From Candidatus Acidiferrum typicum (GTDB lineage Bacteria; Acidobacteriota; Terriglobia; Acidiferrales; UBA7541): 35,136 nucleotides of DNA. Numbering within the stretch: position 1 is the first letter of the stretch; every line of letters starts with the position of its first letter. This document shows positions 6,659-28,914 of this stretch, piece by piece. The notes beneath the pieces were generated by a model that saw only the letters and a program-made list of their open reading frames with translations, searched no databases and had not been told where the DNA came from. Position numbers and translations under genes: made by a program. Location of the stretch: contig JAOAPV010000110.1 of the NCBI GenBank assembly GCA_025463055.1, positions 1 to 35,136 on the forward strand, read 5' to 3'.

Positions 6659-7022
6659 TCTGCGCGAACCCCCAAAAAATCGTTACGTCAAACGCATCTT
6701 TTGGATGTTTAAGAATATTGACTTTCCTAGGCCGCTCCGCTACTTTCATTTTGTACTTGGTAGAGGTGCGGATCCCATTAGTAGCCGAGCGTGCTTTTCC
6801 GATCAGCTTCGGACGCTTGAGCGAAAGGGGAAATTGTTGTTGATCCGCCGAAGTCGCCCGCGGCAGCTGAAAGCCGCGTGCGGTTGGGGGCCAGGCCTAA
6901 GACCTGTCCACTGTCATCCGTAAGTAGTAACGATTCACGCGGATGGAGCGCTATCGAGGAGTGACAGCCCCGAGCTTCCTTCGGTTCTTCCCTTCTCTTT
7001 CGTTCCATTCCAGAAAGCCATC

Positions 7023-21182: not shown

Positions 21183-21259
21183 TGGAGGCGCGGGTGGGAT
21201 TCGAACCCACGAATGGAGGTTTTGCAGACCTCTCCCTTGGGCCACTTGGGTACCGCGCC
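21183..21259 (-). tRNA. tRNA-Cys (anticodon GCA), CCA encoded
   Basis: Read on the minus strand, the acceptor stem GGCGCGG/CCGCGCC (7 pairs), the anticodon stem GAGGT/ACCTC with loop CTGCAAA (anticodon GCA), and the T-arm GTGGG-TTCGAAT-CCCAC are all intact. The discriminator base is U73, a cysteine identity element, followed by an encoded CCA at 21183-21185. It is transcribed toward the purine cluster from its own promoter. Confidence 0.96.
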
Positions 21260-22342: not shown

Positions 22343-23284
22343 TTAGACCAGCGCCGCCGTTACCAACGGATATCCGCGCTCGCGCCAAGCATCCAATCCG
22401 CCCTGCAGCGGACGAATGCGCCGCACGCCCTTGTTCCTCAGGAGCAGCGCCACACGGGCGCTGGTAGCTTCATTCGGTCAAGTGCAGTAAAGAATGACGT
22501 CTCGATCGCGCGGCAGGCGGTCATCCTTCTCTTCCAAATCTTTAGCTTCCATGCGAAAAGCGCCCGGAATCGTATGCGGGTCAGCTTCGAAGTCCAGGGA
22601 ATGCCGCAGGTCCACGATTACCAGTTCTTCTCCAGCGTCAATCTTTAGCTTCAGTTCGTCTGCTGTGATGCGGCCAATGCGCAGCTCCCGTAGAAATCGC
22701 TGGCGCGCAATAAACTTGTACGCAACGTACGCCGCCAACGCGCTGATAACCAGAACCCCGAGTCCGCTGCCAAGGTGAAAAGCATGCTCGGCAATTCTCT
22801 CAATCTCGCCGCTGAAGATAAAACCCAGCCCAACATAGAAGCTGGACCAAAGGAGCGCGCCAAACGCATCGAAAAGTAAGAATCGCGACGGCCGCATGTG
22901 AAAAATGCCCGCCAAAGGCGGCGCGACGGTGCCTAGTCCCGGCACAAATTTCGCAAACAACAGCGACCGCGCACCCTGCTTCGCGAAGAGACCTTCCGTC
23001 CGCCGCACACACGAATCGGGCTCGAGTGAAATTTTGCAAAGCAATTGGAGAACTTTGATGCCGCGCACACGGCCAAGCACGTACCAGCTCGAGTCGGCCA
23101 CGAGGCAACCGAGCACACTCAGGAAAATCGAGCCCGCAAGATTGAATCGCCCGCTCCCAGCCAAAGCGCCCGCTGCCAAGAGAATGGGCAGCGAAGGCAC
23201 CGGCAGACCAATTTGTTCAGCGAATACCCACGCTAGCAGAACCGCATACCCGTGGTGCAGCAGAAATTCCAATACGCTGTGCAT
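22343..23284 (-). CDS. DedA-rhodanese fusion membrane protein with in-frame TGA, candidate selenoprotein
   Basis: If TGA at 22478-22480 is read as selenocysteine, the protein has 313 residues. Residues 1 to ~200 are a DedA/VTT membrane domain (EQIGLPVPSLPILLAAG, LLFAKFVPGLGTVAPPLAGI, several hydrophobic helices). The rest is a cytosolic rhodanese domain (VIVDLRHSLDFEADPHTIPGA ... ILYCT-U-PNEATSARVALL ... RPLQGGLDAWRERGYP), ending at TAA 22343. Reading continues in the same frame with perfect rhodanese homology after the TGA. Sec would be residue 269, two after the loop Cys267, a place where relatives as I recall them carry Cys. A SECIS-like hairpin lies 14 bases after the TGA. Start ATG 23284 is chosen by the membrane-domain N-terminus; an upstream TTG at 23341 overlaps the nitroreductase. 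A plain nonsense mutation is the alternative. Confidence 0.75.
22445..22463 (-). promoter_or_regulatory. Candidate bacterial SECIS element
   Basis: Minus-strand CAGCGCC-CGTGT-GGCGCTG is a perfect 7-bp stem with a 5-base loop, beginning 14 bases after the TGA. The loop starts 22 bases downstream of the codon and has G in its second position. Bacterial SECIS elements are known to sit just 3' of UGA with the apical loop about 16-37 bases away and a G among the first two loop bases, so all these criteria are met. Confidence 0.65.
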
Positions 23285-23307: not shown

Positions 23308-23913
23308 TTACGTCGCAACGAAGGGAGCAGTATGCCCCCAACCGCCCGACATAACAAACTCGCCCAATGGCTTTCGCGTTCGCGGCGCAAGTTCTCGCTC
23401 GCGCAGCTTCTCTGGCAGCGATGCCGGATCGCCAGGGTATCCGACGGCAATCGCCGCTACCGGTTCCCAGTCCGGCGGAATCGTAAATGTCTGCCGCGCT
23501 TTCTCCGCATCAAAGCCGGCCATCTGGTGCACCAACAAGCCGCGCGAATTGGCCTCGAATGTGAGCTGCGCCGTCGCGCTGCCCACATCATGCAGTGCCA
23601 CCCGATTCGGTTTACCTTCACGCTGCGTCTTCACGTGCGCGACGGATAGCGCAAGGACCGGCGCCTGCTTCGCCCAAGTCGCATTGAATTCCACCAGCAC
23701 GCCCAGCATCTTCGCGAAGTTCTCCGCATCATCCTTTGTAGCCACCAGGTAAGCCCATGGCTGCTCGTTGTTGCTGGACGGAGCCCACCGCGCCGCTTCG
23801 AACAATGGTCGCAAAATCTCGCCCGGCACCGGCTTTTCCGCAAACGCGCGCGGGCTCCAGCGGTTCCGGATTAATTCATGAACCGGTACATCAGTAGCAG
23901 CTGCTTTCTGCAT
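23308..23913 (-). CDS. Nitroreductase-family flavoprotein
   Basis: FMN-dependent NAD(P)H oxidoreductase of about 201 residues; the physiological substrate is unknown. N-terminal FMN-binding RNRWSPRAFAEKPVPGEIL and ARWAPSSNNEQPWAYLVAT are typical, and the C-terminal part has DWEPVAAIAVGYPGDPASLPEKLRERE. A start at ATG 23913 fits the family N-terminus; TTG at 23931 is an in-frame alternative. The gene ends 23 bases before the DedA-rhodanese start, so the two are probably cotranscribed. The 115 bases upstream to the YceI gene hold nothing recognisable. Confidence 0.88.
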   Translation of the reverse strand: MQKAAATDVPVHELIRNRWSPRAFAEKPVPGEILRPLFEAARWAPSSNNEQPWAYLVATKDDAENFAKMLGVLVEFNATWAKQAPVLALSVAHVKTQREGKPNRVALHDVGSATAQLTFEANSRGLLVHQMAGFDAEKARQTFTIPPDWEPVAAIAVGYPGDPASLPEKLRERELAPRTRKPLGEFVMSGGWGHTAPFVAT

Positions 23914-24027
23914 AATCTCGGCCCTTATCAAATCGACAGATTTTCAGCGGGAGACGTGCATTTGATGAACAAAATGCGTCCCGCGGTGCATCCACGCCGC
24001 CTTAATCGTACCCGCCCAGGGCGCGCC

Positions 24028-24651
24028 TCAATTCCCAGGCTTTGCAGTAGGCTTTTGCACCATCTCCACGTCAATTGTGATCGCCACGTCATCGCCGACT
24101 ACCAACCCTCCGCCGTCCATCGTGGCGTTCCATTTCACCCCGAAATCCTGTCGGTTGATCTTCGTAGTCGCGTTCGCCGCGGCCCTTTGATTTCCCCACG
24201 GGTCCTTCACCGCACCTGTCGGCCCTTCAACATTTAGCACGACCTGCTTGGTCACTCCGCGAACGGTCAGATCTCCCGTAACTTTCAACTTCCCTGGCTC
24301 GGCCTGCTCCACCTTCGTGGACTTGAAAGTCAGCGTGGGATATTTTTCCACGTCGAAAAAGTGATCGCTGCGCAGATCTTTGTCGCGATCCGGCACGCGC
24401 GTGTCCACCGAAGCGGCATCGATCGTCACGTCCACCGAAGACTTGCTGATGTCTTTATCGTCGAGCTGAATTGTCCCATTTACCTTAGTGAACGCTCCCC
24501 GTACCGTCGAAATTGCCAGGTGCCGCACCGCAAACTGTGCCGCCGAATGGTTCGGATCGATCTGCCAGGTGGAAGTAGCTGCGGACGCCGGCAGCGAAAG
24601 TGCACCCGCTAGCGCCATAATGGAAATTACCCGAGTCAGTAAATGGTCCAT
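24028..24651 (-). CDS. YceI-family periplasmic protein
   Basis: Lipocalin-like barrel of the YceI family, which binds isoprenoid-type lipids in known members; the exact role here is unknown. The 207 residues begin with a signal peptide (MDHLLTRVISIMALAGALSLPASAA), then the family pattern TWQIDPNHSAAQFAVRHLAISTVRGAF, DVTIDAASVDTRVPDRDKDLRSDHFFDVEKYPTLTFKST, and LTVRGVTKQVVLNVEG. The ATG at 24651 has an excellent AAGGAGGG site. It lies 55 bases after the MarR gene and is likely in the same transcript. Confidence 0.93.
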   Translation of the reverse strand: MDHLLTRVISIMALAGALSLPASAATSTWQIDPNHSAAQFAVRHLAISTVRGAFTKVNGTIQLDDKDISKSSVDVTIDAASVDTRVPDRDKDLRSDHFFDVEKYPTLTFKSTKVEQAEPGKLKVTGDLTVRGVTKQVVLNVEGPTGAVKDPWGNQRAAANATTKINRQDFGVKWNATMDGGGLVVGDDVAITIDVEMVQKPTAKPGN

Positions 24652-25171: not shown

Positions 25172-25197
25172 ACAATAGTTGTTGCAACAACTATTGT
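25172..25197. promoter_or_regulatory. Perfect 26-bp palindrome, MarR autoregulatory operator
   Basis: ACAATAGTTGTTG (25172-25184) is followed directly by its exact reverse complement (25185-25197). It lies 6 bases upstream of the marR-type ATG and fills the whole spacer of its promoter, a classic arrangement for autorepression. Binding by the adjacent regulator is inferred. Confidence 0.82.
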
Positions 25198-25200
25198 CAA
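25172..25200 (-). promoter_or_regulatory. Promoter of the MarR gene
   Basis: Minus-strand TTGACA (25195-25200), a 17-base spacer and TATTGT (25172-25177, 4 of 6). Both elements are built into the palindrome. The start of transcription would fall at about 25165-25166, which is the ATG itself. Confidence 0.65.
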
Positions 25201-28014: not shown

Positions 28015-28914
28015 CTAATCCAATTCGCGCCCGGTCAGAATCCGATACGCTTCCCTGTACTTGCCACGCGTTGCACCCACGACCTCCGGAGGCAGCTCCG
28101 GGCCGGGCGGGGTTTTCGGCCAGTGAATGCTCTCCAGATAGTCGCGCACAAACTGTTTGTCGAACGATGGCTGGGGCCCGCCAGGTTTATACTGGGCAGC
28201 GGGCCAAAATCGAGAAGAATCCGGCGTCAACGCCTCATCGATCCAGATGAGCTCATCATTCAGCAATCCAAATTCAAATTTGGTGTCCGCCAGCAGAATC
28301 CCGCGCGGCTCCGCATACGCAGCCGCCCGCCGGTAGATTTCCAGGCTGACCTCTCGTACCCGCTGCGCGTGTTCGTTTCCGATCAGTGCCGCGGCTCGCG
28401 CGAACGAAATATTCTCGTCGTGCCCCGTCCCCGCTTTCGTAGCTGGCGTAAAAATGGGCTCCGGCAAGCGATCGGACTCGCGCAAACCAGGCGGCAACGC
28501 AATTCCGCAAATCTGCCCTGCGGCCTGATAGTCCTTCCACCCCGAGCCCGAAACATAGCCGCGGACAACGCACTCAATCGGCAAAGGCTCCGTCTTGAGC
28601 ACCAGCATCGACCGCCCGGCGAGATCCTCGCGGTACGCCTGGAACGGCGCCGGCAATTCCGTTCCACTCACCACGTGGTTCGGAATCGCATCGCGTAGCA
28701 AATCAAACCAGAAGAGGGAAAGCTGCGTCAGCACCCGTCCTTTATCGGGAATCGGCGTCGGCAAAATCACATCGAACGCCGACAGCCGGTCCGTAGCCAC
28801 GATCAGCAGCTTGTCGCCGGCATCGTAAATGTCGCGCACTTTCCCGCGCGCGGCAGGTGAGATGCCGGCGAACTTCGTTTCTCGTACTACGCGCATTGCC
28901 GCACCGAAGGACAC
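28015..28914 (-). CDS. purC: PurC, SAICAR synthase
   Basis: ATP-dependent ligase that joins CAIR and aspartate in purine synthesis. The 299 residues match the longer (yeast Ade1-like) form: [81 protein letters not shown], and [32 protein letters not shown], which includes the ATP/Mg-binding acidic residues. GTG 28914 is given; ATG 28896 is an equally plausible start six codons later. The stretch 28915-29112 toward SMC has a purine-rich tract but no gene. Confidence 0.95.

Follow-up and report, generated by a model that had tools for sequence, protein, structure and literature searches.

Selenoproteins of the rhodanese type and DedA-rhodanese fusions that carry Cys have been described separately. 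The former include the 'rhodanese-like domain-containing protein form 3, CxU' named in the accessible part of a 2026 review (PMC13188914; also PMC9312934) and are represented by the family model NF041203 (rhodanese_LYCAU), which bears out the statement, in an earlier note on the DNA analysed here, that such selenoproteins exist. The latter include PA1209 of Pseudomonas aeruginosa (PMC12893004) and fusions within COG0586 (PMC10127716), as given in the accessible text of these two papers, and database records label them 'DedA family protein/thiosulfate sulfurtransferase GlpE'. A further comparable protein is TsoB, listed in the accessible part of the same review as a 'rhodanese/DsbD fusion-like selenoprotein' with a UxxxxU motif (NF045694; PMC13188914). 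For the DedA family itself, the available sections of PMC10127716 describe Glu39, Asp51, Arg130 and Arg136 of YghB (i.e. two acidic and two basic tip residues) as the residues of undecaprenyl-phosphate flipping, and call the connection of rhodanese fusions to this activity unclear.

The window, i.e. the whole stretch of 35,136 nucleotides analysed here, is contig 6 of a Candidatus Acidiferrum typicum genome (5.33 Mb, 146 contigs, 98.9% complete and 2.45% contaminated). Read on the minus strand with TGA as Sec, positions 22343-23284 encode 313 residues with a single TGA at codon 269, followed by 44 more codons and a TAA; no coding sequence was found on the plus strand of the same interval. The earlier note had placed this TGA inside the rhodanese active-site loop (ILYC-T-TGA-PNEATSA) and had described the frame behind it as open for 44 codons, and translation confirms both statements. 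The strand, the SECIS-type hairpin, the CX8C pair of the DedA domain and the position of the Sec at +2 from the canonical Cys, all described below, go beyond that note. The Pfam domains PF09335 and PF00581 both score above their cut-offs, and it takes read-through of the TGA to join them in a single frame. The features of the gene are as follows.

22343..23284, minus strand: coding sequence of the predicted DedA-rhodanese selenoprotein, 313 aa with Sec269, TAA at 22343-22345
22823..23200, minus strand: VTT (DedA) domain, residues 29-154 (PF09335, 57.7 bits against a cut-off of 33.9)
23036..23038, minus strand: codon of Cys83, the first Cys of a CX8C pair in the DedA domain
23009..23011, minus strand: codon of Cys92, the second Cys of the CX8C pair
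22379..22666, minus strand: rhodanese domain, residues 207-302 (PF00581, 48.6 bits against a cut-off of 22.2; fold matches in the PDB)
22484..22486, minus strand: codon of Cys267, at the canonical rhodanese nucleophile position by alignment with relatives and with 6mxv
22478..22480, minus strand: TGA codon of the predicted Sec269, in the loop ILYC-T-U-PNEATSAR
22445..22463, minus strand: candidate bacterial SECIS-type hairpin CAGCGCC-CGTGT-GGCGCTG, with a loop that begins 21 nt past the TGA

The predicted protein shares with NF041203 homology over its residues 200-307, a Cys-x-Sec loop (YCTU) and bacterial Sec decoding. However, its score of 89.5 bits lies below the curated cut-off of 115, which makes it a domain homologue rather than a member, and the 126 positions of that model cover a rhodanese only, whereas the window protein adds an N-terminal DedA domain with a CX8C pair. 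It has the same two domains in the same order as the Cys fusions, with C83, C92, C267 and residue 269 (as Cys) conserved in the six compared, but differs from them by Sec at position 269 and by the SECIS-type hairpin of its gene. Like TsoB, judged by the name given in the accessible text, it would be a rhodanese-type selenoprotein joined to a membrane part resembling a thiol relay; the Sec motif and the membrane part differ, and the two are set apart here by description and not by sequence. With the COG0586 flippases (UptA, YghB and YqjA) it shares the VTT domain, an acidic residue at 23 and a basic one at 112, but it lacks the equivalents of Asp51 and Arg136 and adds the CX8C pair and the rhodanese domain. 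The nearest named relative is a protein from a Candidatus Acidoferrales MAG (88% identical; L048), followed by proteins from soil Acidobacteria MAGs.

We searched 151 related genomes, 94 of which contain a match at E <= 1e-20. From these matches 94 loci were retrieved (30 with the search and 64 by place), and 92 of them cover residue 269; two (L152 and L186) end short of it and were dropped, and one fragment match (G066) was left out. Codon 269 is TGA in 61 of the 92 loci, TGC in 24, TGT in six and TCC in one, i.e. 30 Cys and one Ser. GTDB contigs were scanned separately and yielded 70 loci (19 TGA and 51 Cys), many of them from the same genomes as the 151-genome set. Of 396 genomes drawn from across the phylum, 70 have a match at E <= 1e-45; 32 of the 84 matches listed have one in-frame TGA, as counted by eye, and the 40 loci read at residue 269 comprise 23 with TGA, 13 with Cys and four with neither. 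Named carriers of the Cys form include Dyella strains, one Verrucomicrobia MAG and several proteobacterial MAGs. TGA loci also occur under two labels outside the Acidobacteria, Deltaproteobacteria RBG_13_43_22 (L067) and a MAG labelled Betaproteobacteria (L065), although the latter label may be wrong because its protein is 67% identical to the window protein. The expectation of the earlier note that relatives have Cys (a CxC loop) where the window has TGA holds for all but five of the non-TGA relatives read. The note had also named other nonsense codons or frameshifts in close relatives as a sign against a selenoprotein; close relatives instead retain the same TGA, and the 164 matches that were read have no other in-frame stop in their aligned part. 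In the database search, the match in one relative (G031) is broken in two by a frameshift or stop.

For the tree and the alignment, identical proteins were counted once and 11 matches that were too short were left out, giving 131 full-length rows; three loci (L008, L018 and L187) are copies of the window gene. The tree requires at least 13 changes between Sec and Cys, six of them forced by starred branches, with the lone Ser row scored as Cys and with gain and loss not distinguishable in direction. Median dN/dS over 435 pairs is 0.17 after the TGA, 0.11 in the rhodanese part before it and 0.15 in the DedA part. The locus therefore combines an in-frame TGA, conserved downstream coding and Sec/Cys exchange among homologues, as selenoprotein genes do.

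A bacterial SECIS element is a hairpin soon after the TGA with a G early in its apical loop, and the candidate hairpin has this form. We compared it between 61 Sec and 77 Cys/Ser loci, leaving out identical or incomplete stretches. The five core pairs are all preserved in 59 of the 61 Sec loci versus 5 of the 77 Cys/Ser loci, and loop position 2 is G in 61 of 61 Sec loci; the form is weaker in the wider phylum, where 6 of 19 Sec loci are without one or two core pairs. In pair counting over the Sec alignment, 93.6% of the cells are paired and 13 are both-side cells, and none of 500 shuffles reached the covariation score. Two of the five covariation measures are ordinary, namely the pairs with both-side changes (2; 69 of 500 shuffles) and the further pair types (6; 328 of 500), and a stem G-C pair is replaced by A-U in three loci. 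Folded as a single sequence, the hairpin is no better than its shuffles (z -0.58). Among 30 close Sec genes, the lowest synonymous divergence of all 302 eight-codon windows is found in those starting 3, 4 and 5 codons past the TGA (0.141-0.158 vs a median of 0.683), whereas the same site ranks 24th in 14 Cys relatives (0.607 vs a median of 0.736). Two members of the window's genus with Cys269 act as natural controls: one (L034) retains five of the seven pairs, and the other (L035) has all seven but A rather than G at loop position 2.

The genome also encodes the machinery that the earlier note had proposed to look for, all of it above cut-off: a tRNA-Sec (65.2 bits, above the gathering score; tRNA-SeC with anticodon tca by ARAGORN), SelA (560.7 bits), SelB (353.8 bits) and SelD (348.9 bits). 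These four genes lie on four different contigs of a MAG, so contamination would be possible judging by this genome alone. Across the 151 related genomes, 125 have SelA above the cut-off. Scored fusions are present in 87 genomes, 61 with the TGA form and 26 with Cys or Ser only. Of the former, 58 have a full SelA, two a partial one (G012 and G124) and one a weak match only (G026, 85% complete), compared with 15 with and 11 without SelA among the latter (Fisher p 2.7e-6, uncorrected for kinship). Since 15 of the 26 Cys/Ser-only genomes have SelA, the Cys form is not simply a consequence of lacking Sec.

On this comparative evidence, UGA269 is almost certainly decoded as Sec by the cell's SelA, SelB, SelD and tRNA-Sec, directed by the downstream SECIS hairpin, and the selenoprotein reading of the earlier note is supported by the machinery, by the TGA/Cys alternation at 269 and by the same TGA being kept in close relatives. 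Two other accounts of the TGA were weighed. That the TGA is a genuine stop, a lesion in a pseudogene or an error of sequencing would be in keeping with one in-frame stop in one metagenome-assembled genome and with a hairpin that is unremarkable when taken alone, but the recurrence of this TGA at 61 of 92 loci across many assemblies, the downstream dN/dS and the concordance of hairpin and SelA leave it hardly credible, and we reject a pseudogene or an error. Read-through by an ordinary near-cognate tRNA (for Trp or Cys) would preserve downstream selection just as well; yet the non-TGA relatives examined have Cys at 269 in all but five cases, the hairpin with its suppressed synonymous change is confined to TGA genes and the TGA form co-occurs with SelA, and we regard this account as extremely improbable.

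We then considered the rhodanese loop. In the alignment with 6mxv, a rhodanese of solved structure, Cys267 falls on the loop Cys, and the position is Cys in 164 of 164 matches. By alignment, Sec269 is the residue at +2 from the predicted classical nucleophile (Cys267) and not the nucleophile itself. An AlphaFold2 model built from 30 sequences, with residue 269 entered as Cys, has a mean pLDDT of 83.5 and a pTM of 0.71, with the lowest confidence around residues 81-100 (69 and 63). The fold search used residues 190-313 as its query and so hardly probed the DedA half, and the matches listed include no DedA structure; the rhodanese part matches 3tp9_A (Z 16.9, rmsd 1.6, 107 aligned), the persulfide reductase 3nta_A (Z 13.9, rmsd 1.8, 95 aligned) and GlpE 1gmx (Z 13.7, rmsd 2.2, 102 aligned). 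The predicted protein thus has both the fold and the catalytic-loop Cys of the rhodanese superfamily. The same genome contains a second, shorter rhodanese.

Contig 60, 28331-28645, plus strand (1495-1809 of retrieved locus L189, which equals L192): standalone rhodanese of 105 aa

Both loop positions of this rhodanese are encoded by in-frame TGAs (FYUAUPAEAS), and the gene has a hairpin of its own with the loop GGUCA 21 nt past the second TGA (single-sequence z -0.50). Standalone rhodaneses with both TGAs occur in two others of the 151 genomes (L193 and L194; same genus, 86-87% identical, FYUGUPGEAS), and two distant standalone homologues in the 396-genome draw (L220 and L221) have CxU loops (FYCAU and IYCSU). 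The loop is therefore CxU in the window protein, CxC in its relatives and UxU or CxU in its standalone relatives, and the occurrence of Sec at both loop positions in the wider rhodanese family fits a two-chalcogen centre.

In the DedA half, the CX8C pair is nearly invariant: position 83 is Cys in every one of the 130 rows with a letter and position 92 in 129 of 130, with L100, which is gapped at both positions, left out of both counts. Both are present in all six proteobacterial fusions from plasmid or megaplasmid records. Among 15 standalone DedA proteins compared, the pair is present in five and absent in 10, and this indicates that it characterises a group of DedA proteins extending beyond the fusions, in which a fused rhodanese is not strictly needed. 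The following standalone genes encode the pair without a rhodanese domain.

L216, 3872-4555: standalone DedA with CX8C
L217, 4083-4721: standalone DedA with CX8C
L219, 4153-4818: standalone DedA with CX8C
L214, 495-1133: standalone DedA with CX8C

The lone exception at position 92 (L180) has Ser at both 92 and 269. Of the 40 phylum-draw loci, the 36 with Cys or Sec at 269 retain both Cys, and the four without comprise two with Ser92 and Ser269 (L222 and L244), one with Ala83, Gln92 and Ser269 (L243) and one that keeps C92 and has Arg269 (L242). C92 is thus lost in four of five members without Cys or Sec at 269 and retained in 129/129 and 36/36 of those with it, which is suggestive of a linked loss of C92 and the residue-269 chalcogen. 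These five members form a single clade (SH-aLRT 99), so the link stands on one loss at 269 and one or two losses of C92. L222 (genome G390) has an extra in-frame TAG near residue 186 and may be a decaying gene. Counts of charged residues (7 K/R vs 3 D/E over residues 75-116, and 6 vs 1 past the last helix) suggest, by the positive-inside rule, that C83/C92 and the rhodanese domain are probably on the same side of the membrane, facing the cytosol.

We also examined whether the membrane half resembles a lipid flippase, mapping the YghB residues onto the window protein via E. coli DedA (this mapping is our own). In the 131 rows, the equivalent of Glu39 is acidic in 121 (Glu at 23 in 113) and that of Arg130 is Lys112 in all 131, whereas the equivalent of Asp51 is acidic in three and that of Arg136 basic in none. 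The UptA models score far below their cut-offs (NF052604, 60.2 bits vs 250; NF052605, 33.9 vs 300). With two of the four tip residues missing and these scores, identity as an ordinary undecaprenyl-phosphate flippase appears unlikely.

These observations lead us to propose the following mechanism. The rhodanese domain would face the cytosol and bear a two-chalcogen centre, with Cys267 as the putative nucleophile and Sec269 as a resolving or electron-transferring partner. Sulfane sulfur or a disulfide would be taken up on Cys267 and discharged via a Cys267-Sec269 selenenylsulfide. More speculatively, Sec269 might exchange electrons with the Cys83/Cys92 pair on the cytosolic side of DedA, in which case the whole protein might act as a thiol/selenol relay by which the membrane domain is either reduced or sensed and gated; for this exchange and relay we stop a little short of calling the chances even. 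The chain as a whole, from Sec decoding through the two-chalcogen rhodanese centre to the relay with the CX8C pair, seems to us evenly poised between right and wrong. DsbD has a comparable wiring, and the proposed relay would use a different membrane fold. A wider version is more tentative still: DedA-rhodanese fusions in general might be membrane relays in which a cytosolic CxC or CxU loop passes electrons or sulfane sulfur to the CX8C pair of a DedA domain that has ceased to work as a standard undecaprenyl-phosphate flippase, the Sec form being their selenium version, distributed over Acidobacteriota and one or more further MAG lineages.

Two other functions compete with the relay. The Sec rhodanese could be a sulfur- or selenium-transfer enzyme, in which Cys267 carries a persulfide or selenosulfide, Sec269 helps to hand it on and DedA tethers the enzyme or brings its substrate (e.g. 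a selenium oxyanion). Pfam and fold both identify the domain as a true rhodanese, and rhodaneses usually transfer sulfur. In Cupriavidus metallidurans CH34 a DedA protein has reportedly been linked to selenite resistance (Ledgham, 2005), and the same strain carries a Cys fusion, given below, which may or may not be the selenite-linked gene.

L206, 3001-3912 (C. metallidurans CH34 megaplasmid): Cys DedA-rhodanese fusion

Dedicated selenium supply is disfavoured because Cys forms occur in genomes without SelA (11 of the 26 Cys/Ser-only genomes), and a pure supply role would leave the linked loss of C92 and residue 269 unexplained; overall we hold a transfer enzyme to be rather unlikely. Alternatively, DedA could still move lipid, with a C83/C92 disulfide, reduced by the rhodanese loop, as the switch. 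The retained DedA fold, the acidic residue at 23, the invariant Lys112 and the conserved CX8C pair would suit such a redox-gated transporter, but the missing Asp51 and Arg136 equivalents and the low UptA scores make it improbable in our view.

With regard to novelty, we found no report of a Sec DedA-rhodanese fusion or of the link between CX8C and residue 269 in the open-access literature (subscription papers and preprints lie outside this scope), nor of any DedA selenoprotein in the titles and abstract openings of those of its papers that mention both selenoproteins and the DedA family. The words DedA, VTT, SNARE and PF09335 are absent from the main text of PMC13188914 in its accessible part, and the standalone rhodanese with a UxU loop, from the genome analysed here, represents another variant not met there. 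In dozens of genomes from a phylum common in soil, gene callers that treat TGA as a stop would end the protein prematurely, within the active-site loop. Naturally occurring Sec/Cys pairs offer ready single-position variants, and the linked loss of C92 yields a testable prediction on how the rhodanese acts upon DedA.

Finally, we inspected the neighbourhood of the fusion gene, where two upstream open reading frames were labelled from the Pfam families of relatives' neighbours and from synteny.

23308..23931, minus strand: nitroreductase-family open reading frame, immediately upstream (23 nt from the fusion ATG), a possible operon partner
24028..24651, minus strand: YceI-like open reading frame, further upstream

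With the window's nitroreductase as query, a nitroreductase lies within 500 nt upstream of 29 of 60 Sec fusions vs 7 of 71 Cys fusions, and all of these cases belong to the window's family. As a guess, the upstream nitroreductase might supply electrons to the fusion. Flanking reading frames were called by greedy length, and some of the 188 from 94 loci with long flanks may be spurious; all 56 from 28 Sec loci and 56 of the 132 from Cys/Ser loci were scanned. Nitroreductases account for five members in the Sec set and four in the Cys/Ser set, redoxin/AhpC-TSA proteins for four among the Sec neighbours and transpeptidases for five among the Cys neighbours, with the remainder scattered. A promoter scan gave a single site (25172-25200, minus strand), no more than in shuffles. 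Elsewhere in the window are a tRNA-Cys gene (21183-21259, minus strand), about 1.1 kb from the selenoprotein gene, and a lysine riboswitch (6753-6961, plus strand; 65.3 bits).
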